35,199 nt of DNA from a virus, in IMG/VR virus record IMGVR_UViG_3300034198_020657, positions 1 to 35,199 of that record; one strand, 5' to 3'. A model generated the notes under the pieces. The model did not search any database. It was not told where the DNA came from and worked only from the letters and a program-made list of their open reading frames with translations. Below are positions 4,335-33,772 of this stretch, one piece after another (within the stretch, counting starts at the first letter, position 1; every line of letters starts with the position of its first letter). The position numbers and the translations under genes are program-made.

Positions 4335-4640
4335 ATGCCAATGATCTCCGCCGCTGACCCCACCTTCCGCGAGCAATACCCCAACGGCTGCATGGTCTAC
4401 GACCGCCTGGGGCGCCAACTCCACAACGTGGTGGCCTGCAACCTGGAAACCGGTGAGGTGGTCCGCCAGGGCGAGAGCCGAATCGTGGGCGCAGTCTTGC
4501 GAATGGCCAGGGGCCGCGAGCGGAACTGGGATCTTCCGGCCGAGTTTCGCCGCCACGGCTTCTGGCCTGCCCCTCTCAAGATCGTGCCGTGGCCGGTGGC
4601 GCATATCAGCTTTGAGGCCGAGGAGGAACCTGCCGCCTGA
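4335..4640 (+). CDS. Hypothetical small protein upstream of the terminase
   Basis: This protein has 101 residues, with ATG 4335 three bases after the previous stop, and it ends overlapping the terminase start (TGATG at 4638-4642). It contains the pattern FREQYPNGCMVYDRLGRQLHN and then VVACNLETGEVVRQG, resembling a small beta domain with a conserved turn, followed by MARGRERNWDLPAEFRRHGF and a tail EEEPAA. It has no HTH, so it is not obviously the small terminase even though it sits where that gene is often found. The function is unknown. Confidence 0.6.
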   Translation: MPMISAADPTFREQYPNGCMVYDRLGRQLHNVVACNLETGEVVRQGESRIVGAVLRMARGRERNWDLPAEFRRHGFWPAPLKIVPWPVAHISFEAEEEPAA

Positions 4641-6214
4641 TGCCACCCCTCAACCTCCTCCACCACGCTGCCGCCCGCGCCTACGACGGGTTCCCGGTGC
4701 TGGCAGCGATCGAGGAGGCCAGGGCGGCTGAGCTGGCGGAGCCGGTGGAGGCCTACAAGGCCAGTTTTGGCGACTACGTGGCAGCAATCGCACCGGCTGA
4801 TTTTAAGTTCACCAGGCATACCGAAAGGCTGATTGAGATCGGTCAACGGATCGTGGATGGCAAACTGCCGCGGGTGATGATCGAGCTGCCGCCGCGGCAT
4901 TACAAGAGCACGATCTTCAGCCGGTTCCTGCCGGGCTGGTTTCTGCGGCGGTTTCCAGAGCGCACCTTTGGCTTGGGGGCCCACACCCAAACACTGGCCG
5001 CTGAGTTCGGCGAGGCCGCCCGCGGCTACTTTGAGGCTTCCGGTGGTGCCCTGTGCCCCAGCAGCAGCGGCAAGGATCGATGGAAGACCAGCGGCGGCCT
5101 CGGTGGGATGTGGGTTGCAGGCGTCGGCAAGGGCACCGGCCTGCCAGCTCATTTTTTGGGGGTGGATGATCCCATTAAGGGCAGGGAGGAGGCCGAAAGC
5201 GTCGCCTACAGGCGCCGGCTGTGCAACTGGTATTCGACGGTCCTCAACACCAGGGAAGAACCCGGCTGCCTCAAGCTGATCACCCACACCCGATGGCTTC
5301 ATGACGCGGACCTGATCGGCTGGCTGCTTGCCAAGGTTGATGAGCTGGACAGGGAGGGGCACGGGGCCATGGCGGAGCGGTGGCACGTGATCTCTATGCC
5401 GCTGATCGCTGAGCCGATCGTGAAGCCGCTGCCAGCCCTGTGCACCAGGGAGCCAGATCACCGCAAGCCAGGCGAGGCGCTCGATCCCACCCGATATGAC
5501 GAGGAGTGGGCGGAGGCCAAAAAACGCAACACCCCTACCCGCGACTGGGAGGCGCTGTATCAGCAGAACCCCTCCGCCGGGGAAGGAACCGTGTTCTTCC
5601 TGGATCGGATGCGGTTCTACGGCAAGCCCGCATGGCCAGGCCTACCTGATGATCCCCAACTGCCGGATCGGTTCATCCGCACGATCCTCTCGGTGGACTG
5701 CACCTTTGACGACACCGCCGGCAGCGACATGGTGGCCATGACCCTGTGGGGTCAGAACCCTCAGGGCGCCTGGCTGCTGGACCTGGTGAATGAGCGCCTG
5801 GACTTCCCTGCCACCGTGGCGATGATCCGCTCAATGCACACCCGCCACCGCTTCGGGGAGCTGCTGATCGAGAAGAAGGCCAATGGCGCCGCTGTGATCA
5901 AGACCCTCACGCAGGGTGCCCATGGCTACCATGTGGTTGCTGCCGGAGTTGGCGATATGGGCGGCAAGGAAAGCCGCGCCAATGCCGCCTCTGTCGAGTT
6001 CAACAACGGCCGCGTGTTCCTGCCGCGCAATGCCCCGTGGAGCAACGTGGTTCGTGATCAGTTGCTGCAGTTCCCTGCTGCAACCTTCGATGACATCGTG
6101 GACAGCACCAGCCAGTTGTTGATCTACATCGCCGGCACCGGCCCGATCAGCTTCAGCACCGTCAGCTATGGCCACGCCGCGCCAGGAGCGATAGCCCCCA
6201 CGGTGCAGTGGTAA
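4640..6214 (+). CDS. terL: Terminase large subunit (DNA-packaging ATPase/nuclease)
   Basis: This 524-residue protein is the motor that pumps phage DNA into proheads and cuts concatemers. In the N-terminal ATPase there is a variant Walker A, LPPRHYKST (83-91), the form typical of many TerL proteins, and a Walker B-like HFLGVDDPIK (171-180) with acidic D176 and D177. ITHTRW (215-219) fits the coupling motif. The C-terminal RNase H-type nuclease shows SVDCTFDD (351-358, D353), LLIEKKANG (408-416, E411) and FDDIVDST (483-490), the three acidic positions that bind metals. The length is typical. Its start overlaps the upstream stop. No small terminase subunit was recognised. Confidence 0.93.
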   Translation: MPPLNLLHHAAARAYDGFPVLAAIEEARAAELAEPVEAYKASFGDYVAAIAPADFKFTRHTERLIEIGQRIVDGKLPRVMIELPPRHYKSTIFSRFLPGWFLRRFPERTFGLGAHTQTLAAEFGEAARGYFEASGGALCPSSSGKDRWKTSGGLGGMWVAGVGKGTGLPAHFLGVDDPIKGREEAESVAYRRRLCNWYSTVLNTREEPGCLKLITHTRWLHDADLIGWLLAKVDELDREGHGAMAERWHVISMPLIAEPIVKPLPALCTREPDHRKPGEALDPTRYDEEWAEAKKRNTPTRDWEALYQQNPSAGEGTVFFLDRMRFYGKPAWPGLPDDPQLPDRFIRTILSVDCTFDDTAGSDMVAMTLWGQNPQGAWLLDLVNERLDFPATVAMIRSMHTRHRFGELLIEKKANGAAVIKTLTQGAHGYHVVAAGVGDMGGKESRANAASVEFNNGRVFLPRNAPWSNVVRDQLLQFPAATFDDIVDSTSQLLIYIAGTGPISFSTVSYGHAAPGAIAPTVQW

Positions 6215-6240
6215 CAAGATTGAAAGAGAATACAATAATG
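6208..6240 (+). promoter_or_regulatory. AT-rich candidate promoter of the sigma-like gene
   Basis: In the 49-base gap between terL and the sigma-like gene, the composition drops sharply to an A/T-rich stretch containing TACAAT (6231-6236), a good -10-like hexamer. The position 17 bases upstream holds no clear -35 element. A 9-codon frame (ATG 6238 to TGA 6265-6267) overlaps the ATG of the sigma-like gene at 6264. This is inferred only from composition and a single hexamer. Confidence 0.35.
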
Positions 6241-6263
6241 GAACTACAGAATGGGTTGATCCA

Positions 6264-7370
6264 ATGAGCACCCGGAGCCTCAGGGCTGCCCGCAGCACCA
6301 GGCCCCGGCCGCCCGTCGATCCCTGTCCCGATCAGGGCCAGCCCATCCGCCGCTTTCCGGCCCCGACCGAGCACTCTGAGGAGCTGGCGGTGGCCAACCT
6401 GCAGCTGGCCCGGGACATGGCGCAGCGGATGGCCTCGGCGACTCGGATGCCTTGGGATGATCTGTTCCTGGTGGCCTCAATGGGCCTCCTGAAGGCGTGT
6501 CGCCTCTACGACCCCAGCCGGATTTGCCCCAGCACCGGCCGGCCCTACGCCATCTCAACCCTGTGCGTGCCATTCATCCGGGGCGCGATGGCTCAGTACC
6601 TGCGCGATCGGGGGCACACCTCTGGCGTGCGCTTCCCTGATCGCTGGCGAGACAAGGCGCCCACGGTGCGGCGCCTTGCGGCCGATGGGCTCACCCCTGC
6701 GGCCATCGCGCAGGCCACCGGGCTGGGCCTTGAGGACGTGGAAGGGATCCTGACGGGTCAGAGCGCCCCGCAGGCCCTAGACCCTGACGCAATGGGGTTC
6801 GCCAGCTGGGACCCTGATCCCTGGGATGAAGCCGAAGCCTGCGGGGAGCTTCAGGCCGTGCTGGCGGTGGCTGATGCGGCCCATGCGGCGCTGGGGTGGG
6901 CAGATCGCGCCATGATCGAGGCCGCCTGGAACCAGGAGCCGACCCGGTTCCGCCGCCGCCTGGCCCGGCTCCCTCATGGCCAGTTCATGCGGCAGGCGGG
7001 CGGGATCATCCGCAAGGGCAAGGTGATGCCGCTGGAGGGGCAACAGGATCTGGCCGTCGAGGTGCCGATCCACCTGGGCTCCACCGCACCGCGTCGGCGC
7101 ATCAGCAAGCCTGCCGAAATCCTGCAAGCAGCCGAGCAGCTGGGCCTTTTCGGCCCCTGTCTGGATCTGGAAGGCGGGAAAACTGCGACAGCAGGTATGA
7201 ACGTGGCAGGTGAGGCAGTCGATCAGCCATCCAACGGGCGACGGCAAGCTGCCGAGCTTCCAGCACCCAAAGCTCGCCGAGGTGATCGGGGATCTGGATC
7301 TGGTTGCGGACTGCTGGGATCTGTTGCCCGGGGAGGCGAAGCGCAGGCACCTGCCGAAGGAATCGGGTGA
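6264..7370 (+). CDS. Phage-encoded sigma-70-like protein
   Basis: This 368-residue protein has a recognisable sigma region 2: ELAVANLQLARDMAQR (40-55), WDDLFLVASMGLLKACRLYD (64-83) and the PYAISTLCVPFIRGAMAQYL / RDRG block (94-117). This matches the pattern DL.qvG.iGLikA..rfDp...fstyavP.I.G.i..ylRD of group 3 sigma factors. A region-3-like helix-turn-helix follows (VRRLAADGLTPAAIAQATGL, 135-154). A canonical region 4 (-35 binding) is not obvious; the C-terminal half is divergent. The last 54 codons overlap the portal gene in another frame and look like low-complexity read-through. It probably redirects host RNA polymerase to phage late promoters; the repeated element described below is a natural candidate target (inference). 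Confidence 0.72.
   Translation: MSTRSLRAARSTRPRPPVDPCPDQGQPIRRFPAPTEHSEELAVANLQLARDMAQRMASATRMPWDDLFLVASMGLLKACRLYDPSRICPSTGRPYAISTLCVPFIRGAMAQYLRDRGHTSGVRFPDRWRDKAPTVRRLAADGLTPAAIAQATGLGLEDVEGILTGQSAPQALDPDAMGFASWDPDPWDEAEACGELQAVLAVADAAHAALGWADRAMIEAAWNQEPTRFRRRLARLPHGQFMRQAGGIIRKGKVMPLEGQQDLAVEVPIHLGSTAPRRRISKPAEILQAAEQLGLFGPCLDLEGGKTATAGMNVAGEAVDQPSNGRRQAAELPAPKARRGDRGSGSGCGLLGSVARGGEAQAPAEGIG
7175..7186 (+). promoter_or_regulatory. CGGGAAAACTGC element, copy 1 (before portal)
   Basis: An exact 12-base match, followed by GACAGCAG. It lies within the C-terminal coding region of the sigma-like gene and 35 bases (first base to first base) before the GTG of the portal gene. Because it is retained inside another reading frame, it is unlikely to be mere intergenic filler. 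Confidence 0.75.
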
Positions 7371-8748
7371 GCCCAAGCCCGCCTACGAAAACCGCCTTCG
7401 CCGCTCCTCCTACCCCAGCTTCTACCGCGACGGCATCGCGGCCTTCGCAGGGGTTCTGAGCCGCTACGAACTGCGTGGGGCCCCTCAGGGGCTGGTGCAG
7501 GCCGCGCAGGACATCGACGGGGAGGGCAACAGCCTGAAGAAGTGGGGCCTGTCGGCTGACGCCCTGGTGCTGCGTGATGGCGGCTGCCTGCTGATGGCGG
7601 ACATGCCCGCCGATCAGGTATCCGACCGAGCTGTTGAGCGGGCCCAGGGCCGGCGGCCCACCTTCTCGGTGGCGGAGCGCCGCAACCTCCTGAACTGGCG
7701 GGTGCAGCGGGTCGGGCGGCGGATGGTGCCTACGGCGCTGACGGTCCTGGAGTGGCACGAGGAGGAAGACGACGACTACGGGATGAAGCTGGTCCCCCGC
7801 TATCGGGTGATGAAGGGCGGGCAGTGGCGCCTATTGAAGATCGAAGGCGACGGCGGCCGGGGCAAGACCGCCAGTTATCAGGCGGAGGTGGTGCTTGGTG
7901 AAGACGGCAAGCCGATGGAGGGCACCTTCACCGGCGCCAATGGCCAGCCTCTGGCCTACCCCCCGGTGGTTTGGTATTCGGGCGGCGGTGAGCCCTTCGG
8001 GGAAGGAGCGATCCCCCTGCTCAGCCTCGCCAACCTCACCCTGGACTGGTTCCGCGAATATTCCGACCTGAAGGAACTCCTGCACCGCTGCGCCCTGCCG
8101 GTGGCCGTGGTGAAGGGGCGCCGGATGACCGGGCCCAATGGTGAGGTCCTGCCGCTGACCCTGGGCCCCAACAGCCTCCTGGAGTTCCCAGACGGCAATG
8201 GTGATCTGGCCTTCGCTGAGCCCTCCGGCAGCAGCCTCGACAAGCATTTGAGCCACCTGGAGGGCATCGAGAAGCTGATCGATCGCAGCACGCTTTCTTT
8301 CCTGTTCAGCGGCAACGGCAGCGGCCAGCGCACCGCCACCCAAGCGGAGCTGGAAGGCGCCCAGCTGCAGGCCACGATCACCTCAATGGCCGAGGCCAAA
8401 AGCTCCTGCTGGGAGAGCCTGTTTCAGCTCTGGGGCCAGTTCACCGGTGATCTGCCCGAGCCCGGCGCCGGCCTGGATCTACTGCCTGGTGTGACTGACA
8501 AGCCCGTGGACGATGCGCTGATCACCCTCGCCGGCACGCTCTACGACAAGGGTCTGCTGATGCGCGAGACCGTGACCCACCTGGCGCAGAAGCGGGGGAT
8601 GCTCCGGCCTGGGGTGGATGCCGCCAAGGAAGCCAAGGATCTGGCCGCCGAGGATGCCCGCCAGCAGGAGCTGATGAACCCGCCACCGCCAGGGCCGAAC
8701 GACCTGGCCGGGGATGGGCTGGATGCGCAGGGGTTGCCGTTGAGCTGA
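7210..8748 (+). CDS. Portal protein (DUF4055-like)
   Basis: This 512-residue protein starts at GTG 7210, placed 35 bases after copy 1 of the repeated element. The N-terminus (FQHPKLAEVIGDLDLVADCW, then HLPKE and YENRLRRSSYPSFYRDGIAA) matches from memory the DUF4055 portal family, in which HP, W, YLP and Y.nRl.rs.y.n..r motifs open the protein. The middle has AYPPVVWYSGG and the turret-like HLEGIEKLIDRSTLSFLFSG. The C-terminus ends in a Pro-rich tail. Portals form the dodecameric ring through which TerL packages DNA. The position between terL and the gpF-like gene supports the call. The 161-base overlap with the sigma-like frame is unusually long. Confidence 0.8.
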   Translation: MRQSISHPTGDGKLPSFQHPKLAEVIGDLDLVADCWDLLPGEAKRRHLPKESGEPKPAYENRLRRSSYPSFYRDGIAAFAGVLSRYELRGAPQGLVQAAQDIDGEGNSLKKWGLSADALVLRDGGCLLMADMPADQVSDRAVERAQGRRPTFSVAERRNLLNWRVQRVGRRMVPTALTVLEWHEEEDDDYGMKLVPRYRVMKGGQWRLLKIEGDGGRGKTASYQAEVVLGEDGKPMEGTFTGANGQPLAYPPVVWYSGGGEPFGEGAIPLLSLANLTLDWFREYSDLKELLHRCALPVAVVKGRRMTGPNGEVLPLTLGPNSLLEFPDGNGDLAFAEPSGSSLDKHLSHLEGIEKLIDRSTLSFLFSGNGSGQRTATQAELEGAQLQATITSMAEAKSSCWESLFQLWGQFTGDLPEPGAGLDLLPGVTDKPVDDALITLAGTLYDKGLLMRETVTHLAQKRGMLRPGVDAAKEAKDLAAEDARQQELMNPPPPGPNDLAGDGLDAQGLPLS

Positions 8749-9992: not shown

Positions 9993-10004
9993 CGGGAAAA
10001 CTGC
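9993..10004 (+). promoter_or_regulatory. CGGGAAAACTGC element, copy 2
   Basis: An exact 12-base copy in the 42-base gap after the small membrane-protein gene, 31 bases before GTG 10024 of a basic-protein gene. It is followed by TGTAGTAGCAG, matching the GNAG trend of other copies. Confidence 0.75.
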
Positions 10005-10023: not shown

Positions 10024-10641
10024 GTGGCTGGCGGTGGTAGAGGCAGGCGTACCTACACGAGGGACGGCCGAGGCCGCTTCGCCTCGACTGGAACCACCAC
10101 GGCAAAGGCCAAGCCCGCCGCCCGGCGAGCGCAGCGCGGCACCAACCGCCTCACCAGGGACAACAGCGGCAGGATCACAGGTGCCGGGAAGAACGGAGCA
10201 ACCGCCAGGGGCGGCCGGCTGCGGACTGCTGCAGGGAATCAGCGGGGGGCGGTGCTGGATCGGATGAAGCGGGCGCCGATGGCGGGGACTGTGGGCAAGA
10301 AAAGAGGTAAGCTATCGACGAGTAAAATGAAAAAAATGAGTTCTTACAGCAGGGTTGCAGCGTCGGGGCAGGATCTGGCCCGGAGGTGGGCAAGAGCAGG
10401 CGGGGCCGCACGTAGACGCGGAATAGAGAGCTATGCGGGCCCGCCGAGTCGAAAGAAGGCGGAGCGGGCCGCAGTGGTTGACGCGGCTGCGCGTGGATTC
10501 AGGGGAGCCATGGCGGGCGCCCCGGGGCTGAGGTATGCAAACGCAATGAAGCAGCAGGATACTCAGCAAAAAGCAGAGGCTTCTTTCAGGGCGCGGCCAG
10601 TATTTAGTACGAAGCAGAAAACAAGGAAGAACTGGATTTAA
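10024..10641 (+). CDS. Basic Arg/Ala/Lys-rich protein, YxRDxxGRF family (A)
   Basis: This 205-residue protein starts at GTG 10024, 31 bases after element copy 2. It is very basic. Residues 8-22 read RRTYTRDGRGRFAST, nearly identical to the start of the protein at 19327-20607; both continue TGTTTAKA and share Arg/Gly-rich text to about residue 75. After about base 10300 the composition turns A/T-richer (KLSTSKMKKMSSYSRVAA), and the C-terminal 115 residues have no counterpart in the other copy, so the gene looks like a shared head joined to a foreign tail. The charge suggests binding of nucleic acid or packaged DNA; no enzymatic motif is seen. Confidence 0.65.
   Translation: MAGGGRGRRTYTRDGRGRFASTGTTTAKAKPAARRAQRGTNRLTRDNSGRITGAGKNGATARGGRLRTAAGNQRGAVLDRMKRAPMAGTVGKKRGKLSTSKMKKMSSYSRVAASGQDLARRWARAGGAARRRGIESYAGPPSRKKAERAAVVDAAARGFRGAMAGAPGLRYANAMKQQDTQQKAEASFRARPVFSTKQKTRKNWI
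10072..10100 (+). repeat. Direct repeat, 29 bases identical to 19372-19400
   Basis: Inside the conserved N-terminal coding part of the basic-protein gene, 29 consecutive bases are identical to 19372-19400, flanked by a longer zone of partial identity (about 10045-10250 versus 19342-19554). This points to duplication or recombination of the 5' gene module rather than convergent codon use. Confidence 0.85.
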
Positions 10642-10883: not shown

Positions 10884-10895
10884 CGGGAAAACTGC
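10884..10895 (+). promoter_or_regulatory. CGGGAAAACTGC element, copy 3
   Basis: An exact 12-base copy in the gap after 10872, 39 bases before ATG 10923. It is followed by GGCTGTCACC, the least typical downstream block of the set. Its position argues for ATG 10923 rather than an upstream GTG at 10869 as start of the next gene. Confidence 0.72.
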
Positions 10896-10922: not shown

Positions 10923-11231
10923 ATGGCCGGCAATCCCGGGGCAGGAAAGCAGCAGCGCAAGCAGGCGCAGCCGCAGCAGAAGAAACCCGCCGGCCCCAGG
11001 CCGGAACCCGGCCGCCCCGGCTGCTACCGCGATCCCAGTACCGGCAAGTTCGTCTGCCCCCCAGGCGCCAAGCCAGGCGCTCGCCCAGCCGCCAAGCCTT
11101 CCCGCAAGCCTGCTGCCGCCCCAGCGCCAACCCGCAAGCCGCCAAAGGGCTGGTTCCCGATGCCCGACCAACGCGAGCTGCTGAACCGCTCGAACATTGC
11201 CCGCCGGGGCCGCTCCCCTCGCACCGCCTGA
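10923..11231 (+). CDS. Basic Pro/Lys/Ala-rich protein with CYRDPSTGKF motif
   Basis: This 102-residue protein is read from ATG 10923; the frame extends upstream to 10869, but that part would translate the repeated element and looks non-coding. The first 30 residues are Gln/Lys/Pro-rich. PGCYRDPSTGKFVCPPGAK follows, with two Cys flanking a YRDxxTGKF core that resembles the YxRDxxGRF tag of the other basic proteins. The rest is Pro-Ala-Lys repeats ending in MPDQRELLNRSNIARRGRSP. It appears intrinsically disordered and positively charged. A role in binding DNA or in stabilising virion components is possible but unproven. Confidence 0.6.
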   Translation: MAGNPGAGKQQRKQAQPQQKKPAGPRPEPGRPGCYRDPSTGKFVCPPGAKPGARPAAKPSRKPAAAPAPTRKPPKGWFPMPDQRELLNRSNIARRGRSPRTA

Positions 11232-11760: not shown

Positions 11761-11772
11761 CGGGAAAACTGC
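11761..11772 (+). promoter_or_regulatory. CGGGAAAACTGC element, copy 4
   Basis: An exact 12-base copy in the 39-base gap after 11751, 30 bases before ATG 11791. It is followed by GGCAGAGGATCC, where AGAGGA may double as ribosome-binding sequence. It precedes the J-domain basic-protein gene. Confidence 0.77.
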
Positions 11773-11790: not shown

Positions 11791-13065
11791 ATGGCCCGCC
11801 GCAGCAGCTACGTCCGAGACAGCTCGGGCCGCTTTAGCTCCACCCCCGGTGGAGGCCCAGCCCGCAGCTCCCCGGGCACTCGCCGCGCCAAAGCCAAGGC
11901 GAAGGCAACCGGTGGCACCCTCGCCGCCAGGAGCCAGCTGCGGGCCGCTCGCGCCAAGCTCACGCCAGGCGCCAGCCGTCAGCAGCGGGGTGCCGTGACC
12001 CGCGCCAGCAACCGCCTGAAGGCAACCGGTGCCGCCGGCCGGATGAAGCGGCCCGGGGCGGCCGTGGCTGGCCGGATCGCCAAGCCGAAGGGCCTGCAGC
12101 GTGACCCGCAGGCTGCCGCCAAGCTCGCCGCCGGCCGGAAGGGGCCTGCAGCAGCAGGGGCCACCACCAGGGGCCGCCAGCCCAACCTCAAGGCCCAGCG
12201 GGCCAAGGAAATGGCCAATCGCACCAGGGTGGTGCCGGGGCGAATGTTCAACGATGGGCAGGACGTTCGCACACTGTCGCTCGCGCAGATGAGAGCCGCC
12301 GTGCGCCAGCGGCTGCGCTCGGGCGGCATCGAAACCCGAAAGCAGTATCAGGTTTTCTACGGCAAGCCGCCCACCACCCGCAGCGGCTGGGAGGAGATGT
12401 ACCGACAGGTTGTGACCTCCCCCCAGTCCGATCGGAACCTGAAGCCCCGGCGCGGGGTCGTAAACGGGATGGACGTTCAAAAGAGCTTCAGGCCCTGGCA
12501 GGTGTTTGGCCTCAACCCCAAGACCGCCACCCGGGCGGACGTGGAGCAGGCTTACCGGCGCGTGGCCAAGCAGGTTCACCCGGACGCCGGGGGGCGCCGG
12601 AGGGATTTCGAGCGGGTGAAGACGATGCGAGATTCGGTGCTGGCACTGATGCCGCAACCCAAGGCCCCCAAGGGTCGCGGGAAGGGAGCCGCAAAGGCGA
12701 AGGCCAGCGCCCCGGCCGCCCCGGCCGCTCCCCAGGGGCCGAAGCTGCTGCCGCCGGCACGGGGGACGGGGGCGAGGAACGCCGTCACCGCCTCCCCTCG
12801 CCGGCTGAACAGCCAGGAGCGAGCCGTGGCCAGCGTGATGGCAAACAGCAAGTTCAAATCCGATGCAGCCAAGCGAAGGGAGCTGACGCGGCTTGGCTTC
12901 TCGATGAACCAGGAGCAGCTGCTGCAGGCCAGCAATCAGGTGCGCCGCAAGATCAGCCTGTCCCCGATGGCTGATCGCAACACCGCCCGCCAGGCGCTGG
13001 ACCGGGCCACGGGCGCAACCCCTCCAGCCCGCAAACCCCGCCGCAAGCCGAAGCCGAAGCCCTGA
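11791..13065 (+). CDS. Basic protein with J-domain (DnaJ-like), YxRDxxGRF family (B)
   Basis: This 424-residue protein starts at ATG 11791, 30 bases after copy 4. It opens with SSYVRDSSGRFSST, the family tag, then about 130 residues of Arg/Ala/Lys-rich sequence. Residues 235-287 read as a J-domain: PWQVFGLNPKTATRADVEQA, YRRVAKQVHPDAGG, then RDFERVKTMRDSVLAL. The invariant HPD is at 263-265. J-domains stimulate Hsp70 ATPase activity, so the protein could recruit host DnaK to assembling virions or to DNA. The rest is an Ala/Pro/Lys linker and a helical end (LTRLGFSMNQEQLLQASNQV, 365-384). No G/F region or zinc-finger of true DnaJ is present. Confidence 0.75.
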   Translation: MARRSSYVRDSSGRFSSTPGGGPARSSPGTRRAKAKAKATGGTLAARSQLRAARAKLTPGASRQQRGAVTRASNRLKATGAAGRMKRPGAAVAGRIAKPKGLQRDPQAAAKLAAGRKGPAAAGATTRGRQPNLKAQRAKEMANRTRVVPGRMFNDGQDVRTLSLAQMRAAVRQRLRSGGIETRKQYQVFYGKPPTTRSGWEEMYRQVVTSPQSDRNLKPRRGVVNGMDVQKSFRPWQVFGLNPKTATRADVEQAYRRVAKQVHPDAGGRRRDFERVKTMRDSVLALMPQPKAPKGRGKGAAKAKASAPAAPAAPQGPKLLPPARGTGARNAVTASPRRLNSQERAVASVMANSKFKSDAAKRRELTRLGFSMNQEQLLQASNQVRRKISLSPMADRNTARQALDRATGATPPARKPRRKPKPKP

Positions 13066-14785: not shown

Positions 14786-15279
14786 ACCTGGCGCGGCTGG
14801 CGCAGCTGCAGGCCGAGGCCAACCGCATTGCCCTGATGGCCGCCGGGGGCACACCAGAGGGCGATCCGCCCAGCCTGTTGGACTTCTGCTTCTGGGCAGA
14901 GGTGACTGAGAAGCCAAGGCCCCCCGAGCAGGCCGGCGCAGCGATGCTGGCCCTGCTGGAACGCGATCTGCTGCCGTCGTTCGTGCTTGATGGCCCGTGG
15001 CTGGCAGAACTGGAGGCCCAGGGGCGCGGGGTCACCCCACCGCGGCGCCTGTGCTGGGCGGCCGAGGATGCGATCCTGCTGGCCCCCTACCGGGCCGACG
15101 GTGAGCACTGGGGCGGGTTCCTGGTGACCCGGGCCAGCGCCGCGGGTCAGGTGCGGCTGTTCGCCTCAGAGGAGGGCGAGGAGGTGACCCTGAGGGTGCC
15201 GGCTGACGTGGTGCCGCCCAAGGCGTTCTCGGGCTGCCGCGCCAATGCTCTGGTGCCTATCTGGACCCGGGAAAACTGA
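14030..15279 (+). CDS. Tail assembly chaperone, frameshifted long form (gpG-T-like)
   Basis: Reading 188 codons in frame zero and then slipping -1 at GGGAAAG gives a product of about 416 residues ending at TGA 15277-15279. The -1 frame is fully open from the slip site to that stop. It reads DWGACYWELRRLFPGAAEF, YALEALEAGHRQERRGL and LNLARLAQLQAEANRIALMA before the only in-frame ATG candidates at 14830 and 14836, so the part upstream of the ATGs is coding. The C-terminal region (APYRADGEHWGGFLVTRASA etc.) may be a separate domain. In lambda the long form links the chaperone to the tail tube. Alternatively an ATG near 14836 could start a separate 147-residue protein. Confidence 0.75.
14587..14593 (+). 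other. Programmed -1 frameshift slippery site GGGAAAG
   Basis: The heptamer is in the exact X_XXY_YYZ register of the zero frame (G GGA AAG, codons 14588-14590 and 14591-14593). It is the same heptamer used in the lambda G-T frameshift (established knowledge). A possible stem (GCGGCC 14596-14601 with GGCC-T-GC 14613-14619) follows, although closer to the slip site than usual. Confidence 0.82.
15268..15279 (+). promoter_or_regulatory. CGGGAAAACTGA element, copy 5
   Basis: The 11-base core is exact; the twelfth base is A instead of C. It overlaps the last codons and the TGA of the frameshifted chaperone (TGA 15277-15279) and lies 31 bases before ATG 15299 of the tail tube gene. It is followed by GGGCAGAG. 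The variant twelfth base coincides with the need for a stop codon. Confidence 0.74.
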
Positions 15280-19281: not shown

Positions 19282-19293
19282 CGGGAAAACTGC
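19282..19293 (+). promoter_or_regulatory. CGGGAAAACTGC element, copy 6
   Basis: An exact 12-base copy in the divergent gap (19210-19326) between the minus lysis-type operon and the + basic-protein gene, 45 bases before ATG 19327, the largest spacing of the set. It is followed by AGGCAGAA. It is the first + signal after the inverted block. Confidence 0.77.
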
Positions 19294-19326: not shown

Positions 19327-20607
19327 ATGGCCCGAGGATCCGGTCGCCGCACCTACACCCGCGACAGTAACGGCCGCTTCGCCTCGACTGGAACCACCAC
19401 CGCCAAGGCCAGGCCGGCAGCGCGGCGGGCGGCCACCAGGGCAGGCAACCGGCTGAACCGCGACAACACGGGCCGGATCAGCGGGATCGGCCGCAATGGG
19501 GCCACGATCCGCGGCGGGAGACTGAAGACCGCCAAGGGCAATGCCAGGGCCACGCAGACCGCCTCGATGCGCGGGGCAGGGTTCAGGGCTAGCACGATCG
19601 CCAAGGGCGGGCGGGGTGTCAGCGGGAAGGTGGCGCGGAGCATGGCGGCGGTGCGCAAGGAGAGGGCTGGGGCGCAGACGGCTCAGGCCACCCCGATGCC
19701 GCGTCGCGTTCCTGCTGCGCAGCGGCCGGGGTCGCTCACCTCCACCCTGCGGGGCACACTGCGGGCCCTGGCCAAGGCTGATGCCGCCCGCATCCGCGAG
19801 CTAGAGGCGATCACCGGGCAGAAGGTGCGGCCCACCCCTGCAGGCGCCAGGGCCGGCGCCGAGGCCGGGGCCAGGGTGCGAGGCACCGCCAAGGGCGGGA
19901 AGGTGGCGGGCACCCTGCGGGCAGGCCTGCGGGAGTTGGCGCAGAGCGATGCCAGAACCGCTCGGGAGATGGCCGCGATCGTGCGCGATGCCACGCCGAA
20001 GGTGGCCGGCGGGAAGGGTGGGAAGGCGATGAAGGGGGCGGTGGCGGCGGGGGCTAAGCCTGCGGCTGCCAAGCAGCAACCGCAGCGGCCATCCAAGAAG
20101 CCCGCGAACAAAGCTCAGCAGGCCTACCTCAACGCCAGGAGCAACGCACGCGACCGCAACCGGGATCTCCGAGGGGCTGATGCAGGTTCAAGGCGCATGG
20201 CCAACTCGGCAGCAGCCGTGCTCAGAAACATGGAGCGCAGGCGCTCCGCCGCAGTTCCTAAGGCGCCGGCTGATTCGCCTCGCGCCAAGCAGCAGCAGAG
20301 GCAGCTTGCAAGAAGCCAGCGAGCAATCCGCAATGAACGGGCCGCGTGGGCTCGGATAGCGGATGGCCCCGGCAGCAAGGCCAGCCGCAGTGCAACGGTC
20401 GCCAGGCGTGCCCAGCAGATTTACGACGGGAAGGTTGATCCCAAGGTCAAGACGAAATCGAGGCTGACCAGGACCAACGACCCTGAGGTACTTCGCAAAC
20501 GGATCGCCAAGATCAAGGACAACACGGCGAGGGCCGCCGCCAAGCCCACCCCCCGCAAACCCGCCCCTCAAGGCCCCGGCCCCCGCACCAAAGCCCCCCG
20601 CCGCTGA
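19327..20607 (+). CDS. Basic Arg/Ala/Lys-rich protein, YxRDxxGRF family (C)
   Basis: This 426-residue protein starts at ATG 19327, 45 bases after copy 6. Residues 6-21 read GRRTYTRDSNGRFAST, sharing the tag and about the first 75 residues with the protein at 10024-10641, including 29 identical bases. It is extremely basic throughout (Arg, Lys, Ala, Gly). Two similar internal segments can be seen: SLTSTLRGTLRALAKADAAR and KVAGTLRAGLRELAQSDART, each followed by an Arg-Glu-x-x-Ala-Ile helix. The C-terminal half contains PRAKQQQRQLARSQRAIRNE and ends GPGPRTKAPRR. No enzymatic motif is seen; histone-like or virion DNA-binding roles are possible. Confidence 0.65.
   Translation: MARGSGRRTYTRDSNGRFASTGTTTAKARPAARRAATRAGNRLNRDNTGRISGIGRNGATIRGGRLKTAKGNARATQTASMRGAGFRASTIAKGGRGVSGKVARSMAAVRKERAGAQTAQATPMPRRVPAAQRPGSLTSTLRGTLRALAKADAARIRELEAITGQKVRPTPAGARAGAEAGARVRGTAKGGKVAGTLRAGLRELAQSDARTAREMAAIVRDATPKVAGGKGGKAMKGAVAAGAKPAAAKQQPQRPSKKPANKAQQAYLNARSNARDRNRDLRGADAGSRRMANSAAAVLRNMERRRSAAVPKAPADSPRAKQQQRQLARSQRAIRNERAAWARIADGPGSKASRSATVARRAQQIYDGKVDPKVKTKSRLTRTNDPEVLRKRIAKIKDNTARAAAKPTPRKPAPQGPGPRTKAPRR
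19372..19400 (+). repeat. Direct repeat, 29 bases identical to 10072-10100
   Basis: This is the second copy of the repeat in the coding start of the basic-protein genes; partial identity extends on both sides (about 19342-19554). See the entry at 10072-10100. Confidence 0.85.
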
Positions 20608-21050: not shown

Positions 21051-21062
21051 CGGGAAAACTGC
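21051..21062 (+). promoter_or_regulatory. CGGGAAAACTGC element, copy 7
   Basis: An exact 12-base copy beginning directly after the TGA at 21048-21050, 35 bases before GTG 21086 of the tape measure gene. It is followed by AGCAGTAG. Confidence 0.77.
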
Positions 21063-28948: not shown

Positions 28949-28960
28949 CGGGAAAACTGC
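28949..28960 (+). promoter_or_regulatory. CGGGAAAACTGC element, copy 8
   Basis: An exact 12-base copy six bases after the TGA of the tail-tip gene, 31 bases before ATG 28980. It is followed by CGCAGAG, close to the consensus downstream block. Confidence 0.77.
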
Positions 28961-28979: not shown

Positions 28980-29426
28980 ATGGCTGCTTCGATGATCGTC
29001 ACCCCCTATGCGCAGGGGGCGATGTGGGCGGCCTGGGCCCAAGGCAAGGCGGCGCGGTTGTGTTTGGCGCAGAACGCCGGCAGCCTCACGCAGGCCAGCA
29101 CCACCGCGCAATGGGATGCGGCCGAGATCAGCGGGAACGGCTACAGCCGCTTTACCTGGACCCTGCCGGCAGGGAGCTACGACGGCACCGCAGGCCGCTT
29201 CCAGGCGCCCGTGCAGCAGGCGACCTTCACGGCATCAAGCGCAGGGGTTGGCCTGAGCTTCAACGCCCTGTACCTGGTGCTGGGCAGCGGCACCGGCCAA
29301 AACATCACCTGGGATACGGGCATCACGGCGATTTTCGCCGAAAGCCCCTCGGTGGCCCTGGCCCCGGGTGAGCCCCGGGCCTACAACGTGCGCCTGTTCA
29401 CTGACAACATCATCGCCACCAGCTGA
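28980..29426 (+). CDS. Tail-region hypothetical protein
   Basis: This 148-residue protein starts at ATG 28980, 31 bases after copy 8; ATG 28992 is a second option. The sequence is beta-rich: VTPYAQGAMWAAWAQGKAAR, FTWTLPAGSYDGTAGRFQAP, NITWDTGITAIFAESPSVAL. It resembles a small adhesin or tail-tip accessory domain. No family is recognised. The stop overlaps the next ATG (TGATG at 29424-29428), so it is coupled to the following gene. Confidence 0.6.
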   Translation: MAASMIVTPYAQGAMWAAWAQGKAARLCLAQNAGSLTQASTTAQWDAAEISGNGYSRFTWTLPAGSYDGTAGRFQAPVQQATFTASSAGVGLSFNALYLVLGSGTGQNITWDTGITAIFAESPSVALAPGEPRAYNVRLFTDNIIATS

Positions 29427-30759: not shown

Positions 30760-30771
30760 CGGGAAAACTGC
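30760..30771 (+). promoter_or_regulatory. CGGGAAAACTGC element, copy 9
   Basis: An exact 12-base copy in the 48-base gap after 30747, 36 bases before ATG 30796 of the scaffold-like gene. It is followed by TGGGCAAC. Confidence 0.76.
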
Positions 30772-31642: not shown

Positions 31643-31654
31643 CGGGAAAACTGC
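31643..31654 (+). promoter_or_regulatory. CGGGAAAACTGC element, copy 10 (before capsid leader)
   Basis: An exact 12-base copy 20 bases after the scaffold stop. The nearest ATG is 31672 (29 bases away), but that opens a 77-codon frame overlapping the capsid gene. The preferred capsid start (GTG 31818) is 175 bases away, which would give this copy by far the longest leader. Confidence 0.72.
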
Positions 31655-31666
31655 GGGTGATCCAGA

Positions 31667-31759
31667 GCGCGATGCCGCGGGTCACCCGCACCGGGCGCGA
31701 TGCCGGGGGCGCCACAACCAATGACCACTGCCGACACGGGCACCAGGCGGCGCGATGCC
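31667..31759 (+). repeat. Leader with three GCGCGATGCC copies before the capsid gene
   Basis: The decamer GCGCGATGCC occurs at 31667-31676, 31695-31704 and 31750-31759, and once at the scaffold gene start (30791-30800). Each contains an ATG (31672, 31700, 31755) in a different frame; only the third is in frame with the capsid. Confidence 0.55.
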
Positions 31760-33378: not shown

Positions 33379-33390
33379 CGGGAAAACTGC
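33379..33390 (+). promoter_or_regulatory. CGGGAAAACTGC element, copy 11
   Basis: An exact 12-base copy 18 bases after the terminator and 31 bases before ATG 33410. It is followed by CAGCAGGAGGC, which contains an AGGAGG ribosome-binding sequence. A new transcript must start between the terminator and the gene, so this copy argues most directly for a promoter role. Confidence 0.8.
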
Positions 33391-33409: not shown

Positions 33410-33772
33410 ATGGCCTGGATTGAGGACTACGCCTGGACCCTGGAGCAGGGTATCGCCGCCCGGCTGGAACTGCGGATGTTTGCCGATACCCTGAAAACTG
33501 AGCCATGGGTATTCACTAACTGGATCATTTACGGGTTCGTCAGTAATAAGAACCGCTCAGAGATTTACCAGCTGGACATGAGCCAGTCCAATCCGGCCAC
33601 CGGCTCCCTGGTGGCGATCCTGCCCGAGGCCTCGGTGAATGTCCTGGTGGTGGGCCGGGAGTATTTCTTCGACCTGCTCGGCATCGCCCCCGGCACCGAA
33701 CCGGCCGACGATCATCACATCGCCTTTGGGCAGGCCGTGCCCGTGTTCCGCCCCGCCAGGAGGCCCGTATGA
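33410..33772 (+). CDS. Small tail-fibre-region protein
   Basis: This 120-residue protein starts at ATG 33410, 31 bases after copy 11, with AGGAGG 13 bases upstream. The sequence MAWIEDYAWTLEQGIAARLE, then VFTNWIIYGFVSNKNRSEIY and YFFDLLGIAPGTEPADDHHI, is beta-rich and ends FGQAVPVFRPARRPV. Its placement directly before a long fibre gene suggests a fibre-attachment or chaperone-like role. No family is recognised. The stop overlaps the next ATG (ATGA). Confidence 0.6.
   Translation: MAWIEDYAWTLEQGIAARLELRMFADTLKTEPWVFTNWIIYGFVSNKNRSEIYQLDMSQSNPATGSLVAILPEASVNVLVVGREYFFDLLGIAPGTEPADDHHIAFGQAVPVFRPARRPV

Follow-up and report, generated by a model that had tools for sequence, protein, structure and literature searches.

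Does a sigma factor encoded between terL and the portal gene of a phage direct transcription from an element repeated through the structural genes around it? The DNA analysed here (the window) is a single 35,199-base IMG/VR record (IMGVR_UViG_3300034198_020657) of a phage that infects freshwater cyanobacteria. A sequence-only reading had proposed that the gene at this site encodes a protein with a sigma-70 region 2, a region-3-like part and no clear region 4, linked to an element before all late units in the manner of T4 gp55.

Identity and domains of the sigma factor

The product of ORF 6264-7370 (368 aa) is close to certain to be a sigma factor. PHROG sigma factors, in matches that name three generic sigma families, align with residues 39-162 (best 5.5e-17), and a profile made from six relatives retrieved sigma factors from the PDB, with sigma-F (1l0o, 7.4e-14) at the top. 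Both sequence and the fold of region 2 place the protein in the sigma-70 superfamily: in an AlphaFold model built from a 33-sequence alignment, region 2 superimposes on SigE domain 2 (Z 12.8, 2.1 Å over 77 residues) and on sigma70 (1.4 Å over 74 residues). The model is also confident over region 3, and alignments to PDB sigma domain 3 extend to residue 167-176.

The nearest NCBIfam family is SigF (NF005644, 7.5e-14), matched at residues 40-131 only and with 52 bits, below the cut-off of 261; a host homologue (L248) scores 403 across its whole length. Our sigma is related to the group 3 sigmas SigB/SigF/SigG, with cyanobacterial SigF and Bacillus sigma-F, -B and -G as its closest likeness, and is not a member by the NCBIfam cut-off. 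It differs from that group in scoring far under the family cut-offs, in carrying an extra tail peptide and in having no recognisable region 4. No Pfam match to region 4 was found in the phage sigmas by a search that gives a clear one in host SigF homologues, and the cyanobacterial homologues examined finish in the region 4 helix-turn-helix. Residues 186-251 form helices of low model confidence whose fold gave no structural match. Separate modelling of residues 184-298, at low confidence (pLDDT 60), gave no PDB match and no sign of a cryptic region 4; the tail helices may include a degenerate one.

The position of the gene is conserved. Among relatives found by searching IMG/VR with the sigma alignment (172 detected, 80 of them retrieved, as contigs that may be incomplete and homologous loci that are not independent of each other), terL ends just 5′ of the sigma gene in 61 of 63 loci with enough sequence to judge, and the portal gene directly follows it in 41 of 42. 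As annotated, the window ORF runs past the portal start; homologues end near the first copy of the repeated element, and the true end of the protein is probably near residue 295-320. That copy had been described as lying after the sigma gene and is in fact inside the 3′ end of the annotated ORF. Just 5′ of the sigma start, positions 6216-6262 are A+T-rich and contain TACAAT in a genome of 66% G+C, possibly a host-sigma promoter driving the late sigma gene.

Table 1. Features of the window, numbered from its first base
Feature	Position	Strand	Remarks
terL (terminase large subunit)	4640..6214	+	PHROG terL 4e-74; upstream neighbour, conserved
Late sigma factor gene	6264..7370	+	SigF type with regions 2 and 3; region 4 not recognisable; predicted clamp-binding peptide
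Sigma region 2	6369..6617	+	residues ~36-118; core-RNAP and -10 binding; model confident over ~35-118, pLDDT >90
Sigma region 3	6639..6764	+	residues ~126-167; model helices 126-165, confident
QLGLF, predicted sliding-clamp binding pentapeptide	7137..7151	+	residues 292-296; resembles the consensus QL(S/D)LF
Element 1, CGGGAAAACTG	7175..7185	+	5′ of portal (GTG 7210)
Portal	7210..8748	+	PHROG 8e-68; GTG start 7210; downstream neighbour, conserved
Element 2	9993..10003	+	5′ of ORF 10024-10641
Element 3	10884..10894	+	5′ of ORF 10923-11231
Element 4	11761..11771	+	5′ of ORF 11791-13065
Element 5	15268..15278	+	5′ of tail protein ORF (ATG 15299)
Element 6	19282..19292	+	5′ of ORF 19327-20607
Element 7	21051..21061	+	5′ of tape measure gene (GTG 21086)
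Element 8	28949..28959	+	5′ of ORF 28980-29426
Element 9	30760..30770	+	5′ of head scaffolding gene (30796)
Element 10	31643..31653	+	5′ of major head protein gene (31755); long leader, inverted repeat
Element 11	33379..33389	+	5′ of ORF 33410-33772

A one-stranded element and its probable reader

Exact matching in the window returned 11 copies of CGGGAAAACTG on the + strand and 0 on the - strand, independently of the list in the sequence-only reading. CG precedes the 9-mer GGAAAACTG in every copy; the 9-mer itself is expected 0.06 times per strand. Measured to inferred start codons, all copies but one are 28-43 nt 5′ of a long ORF that begins with ATG or GTG, including the portal, tail protein, tape measure and head scaffolding genes; copy 10 is exceptional, with a leader of ~100 nt to the major head protein gene. 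Of the claim that the element stands before all late units, its placement mostly 5′ of structural genes holds, but the copies serve gene clusters and not each late gene.

The same one-sided distribution recurs in relatives. One record (G001) spans the full window and a further ~19 kb upstream, with 12 elements; two others whose sigmas are 56-58% identical (G003 and G005) have 14 and 12 on a single strand, and copies per related record, one strand each, number 14, 12, 12, 10 and 7. Across 37 window-type loci, GGAAAACT[G/C] occurs 137 times forward and 0 times in reverse, and an element lies 5′ of the portal gene in 46 of 49 window-like loci. Three loci with a sigma 36% identical carry GGAA[C/T]CCTG instead (7 forward, 0 reverse), and 31 S-CBS2-type loci carry GGnAnnCTA (131 forward, 16 reverse). 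The case named beforehand as refuting the link, relatives that retain the elements and have lost the sigma-like gene, did not turn up: element-bearing contigs without a sigma match (G004, G006-G008) are fragments without terL and so say nothing on it.

The element is not a mere part of the sigma gene: G004 keeps it at the portal with a DNA methyltransferase-like gene directly upstream, between the expected sigma site and the portal (L150:1-1090). The pattern in G009 is chance, a repeat of different sequence. In the window group, whether an element has G or C as its ninth base does not follow the sigma clades.

More divergent cyanophages share the arrangement. S-CBS2 (gp077), S-CRES1 (gp20) and P-SS2 (ORF003, a 'type III' sigma) encode homologous sigmas, ~30% identical, directly after terL. 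GGAAAACTG is absent from S-CBS2 and S-CRES1. An unbiased search of the 60-70 nt 5′ of all annotated genes, by k-mer enrichment and ZOOPS expectation-maximisation, returned GG.AtcCTA, GGtA..CTa and GGaAg.cTa in these three phages, the common motif being GGnAnnCTA, largely one-stranded and about 30 nt 5′ of many genes. At -34 to -26 from annotated starts, GGnAnnCTR precedes 21 of 102, 19 of 111 and 16 of 131 genes in these phages, where random positions give an expectation of 0.5-0.7 and the opposite strand 0-1; in four cyanosiphoviruses without a late-type sigma, such sites number 0/62, 3/63, 2/46 and 0/43. Strand bias, placement at the portal, a shared skeleton in divergent phages and low control counts together support the proposed association of sigma and element.

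All element variants have in common the skeleton GG-n-A-n-n-C-T. The most important bases of sigma70-type -10 elements are A-11 and T-7, and setting the T of the skeleton at -7 puts its invariant A at -11. In this register GG falls at -14/-13, the extended -10 positions read by sigma region 3, and one S-CBS2/S-CRES1 variant, GGTATACT, reads TATACT, a normal -10; the -10 elements of sigma-F also start with GG. No conserved -35 column was found across element copies in any of six genomes, as expected of a sigma that lacks region 4. Many copies in the window are followed after 4-6 nt by CAG, and +1 would lie near it. On these sequence grounds we consider it likely that the sigma encoded at 6264-7370 reads the elements, although the agreement could partly reflect shared descent because both are inherited together.

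The sigma tail and a predicted link to the sliding clamp

A feature unforeseen in the sequence-only reading is the tail of the sigma. Q-x-x-L-F is present there in 62 of 78 sigma-family proteins, against 1.4 expected from shuffled tails, as QLGLF in the window, as QLDLF, QLALF or QCDLF in relatives and, in S-CBS2-type sigmas, as QGSLF forming the final five residues. C-termini are almost wholly different between sigma subfamilies, yet nearly all keep the motif. Clamp-binding peptides of bacteria have the consensus QL(S/D)LF (PMC9690074), which the QLDLF of many members fits exactly; by sequence pattern, the window sigma and its relatives thus share with beta-clamp binding proteins a pentapeptide of this kind near the C-terminus. 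Sigmas of P-SS2 and of three loci (L197, L230 and L233) are without Q..LF, and some members have divergent tails (QLGFF, QLALL, QAALL).

A search that detects the DnaN of Synechococcus elongatus found none in the phage genomes, so the clamp partner would be the host's. From the peptide we judge it likely that the sigma tail binds host DnaN. Coupling to replication follows only if this binding is true; as the peptide is missing from P-SS2 and a few other sigmas, the coupling may have been lost in those or be non-essential. In the open-access literature searched, no phage sigma outside T4 was found to carry a clamp motif.

An alternative, which we hold to be unlikely, keeps the sigma as the reader of -10-only promoters and gives QxxLF another partner, either RNA polymerase or one of phage origin, or treats it as a leftover. 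It gains from P-SS2 and the other members that keep the promoter motif without the peptide. It leaves unaccounted for the conservation of the peptide in tails that otherwise cannot be aligned (Q292 at least 90%, A2), the exact clamp consensus in many members and the rarity of the motif elsewhere: Q..LF lies within the last 40 residues of 3 of 301 annotated proteins from three phages, one of them the S-CRES1 sigma, and in the window the sigma is the one ORF of 29 with such a tail. A role as C-terminal degron is unlikely because proteins of the window group have further residues after the motif.

Two observations concern S-CBS2 itself. The deposited sigma gene (NC_015463.1, 56832-57452) stops before the motif and the QGSLF tail lies in another frame, so the gene is frameshifted as deposited or the sequence contains an error. 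A RusA-like Holliday junction resolvase (52103) ends in QEPLF, possibly a second clamp-binding tail.

T4 late promoters consist of a -10 element only. Our preferred reading, to which we assign a good probability, joins a late sigma, -10-only promoters and coupling to replication through the tail peptide and the host clamp. Late in infection, the sigma would take over host core RNA polymerase and open promoters made of an extended -10 alone, CGGGAAAACT(G/C), with G-14 G-13, A-12 to A-9, C-8 and T-7. The tail peptide (QLGLF; QLDLF or QGSLF in relatives) would bind host DnaN on replicating phage DNA and so supply the promoter recruitment otherwise given by region 4 and a -35, and late transcription would follow replication as with T4 gp55/gp45. 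We lean slightly towards the further view that late transcription activated by the replication clamp has a second origin, separate from the T4 group, on a SigF-type sigma of cyanobacterial siphoviruses that would have dropped its -35-reading domain and gained a DnaN-binding peptide, with the host clamp as activator.

T4 gp55, homologous to sigma region 2, carries its clamp-binding motif on a linker; loss of that motif impairs but does not abolish activation, and the motif of gp33 is essential (PMC7892883). In layout, the window sigma resembles T4 gp55 (with gp33 and the clamp gp45) in having sigma region 2, no recognisable region 4 and a predicted clamp motif in its tail (PMC7892883, PMC2988020). 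The gp55-type features of the family, recorded at the sequence level, are the clamp motif frequency and the missing -35 conservation given above. Unlike gp55, the window sigma is of SigF type with region 3, and its motif follows the pattern for bacterial DnaN; the phages gave no match to a clamp gene, no counterpart of gp33 is proposed, and the predicted promoter reads GGGAAAACT as against TATAAATA in T4. The predicted clamp-binding peptide makes the earlier comparison with gp55 better than first thought.

PMC2988020 describes clamp-activated late transcription as particular to T4-related phages. If our reading is true, a second case with another sigma and probably a host clamp would make clamp activation a recurrent solution, here as a simple two-part system, a sigma plus a short promoter. 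Promoters would also be assigned to a gene that has been known since P-SS2 (2009) and is without matched targets in the literature examined, and late expression in a widespread group of cyanophages would become directly testable. The accessible text of the P-SS2 paper reports BPROM sigma70 promoters only, suggests that the sigma likely reads a particular regulon, and does not describe GGnAnnCTA (PMC2784084). Promoters of the 7-11 phage sigma were predicted by bioinformatics (PMC4331800); phiEco32 and 7-11 likewise pair a phage sigma with short phage-specific promoters, and differ in being other phages with other sigma sequences.

Other readings of the element

That the elements are promoters or operators of another factor (a second sigma, host SigF or an activator), with the late sigma serving something else, seems to us improbable. 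A complete RpoD-type sigma (318 aa, regions 2-4) is encoded outside the window in the early region of G001 (L141:7592-8548, - strand), as it is in S-CBS2 and P-SS2. S-CRES1 too encodes a second sigma, and SigF homologues are present in cyanobacterial hosts, all of which suits such a factor. Against it, G003 and G005 have elements and no Sigma70_r2 match for a second sigma, in records that may be fragments; 0 and 2 sites were counted in the cyanosiphoviruses S-CBS1 and S-CBS3, whose sole sigma is annotated rpsD4, and 3 in KBS2A, whose sigma is annotated RpoD; and the -35 that a full sigma normally uses is absent. The two sigmas possibly form an early/late cascade.

An action of the element in RNA, on translation, processing or mRNA stability, is highly improbable: nearness to start codons and a conserved inverted repeat in the major head protein leader favour it, but the 28-43 nt spacing of most copies is too far for ribosome binding, the leader folds no more stably than its shuffles (z 0.38), no Rfam match was found, and an A and a T four bases apart suit a -10 element.

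That inverted repeat (31653-31720; 9-10 bp, three compensated pairs) is kept in six relatives, as are two GCGCGATGC copies after element 10 in the same leader. It begins 3-4 nt 5′ of the predicted +1 of element 10, which counts against the late-sigma reading.

One element of G001 precedes a small membrane-protein ORF that could encode a holin. At the start of the two ORFs behind elements 2 and 6, a stretch of 84 nt is 81% identical between them (10048-10131 and 19348-19431), possibly a duplicated N-terminal domain of two structural proteins.
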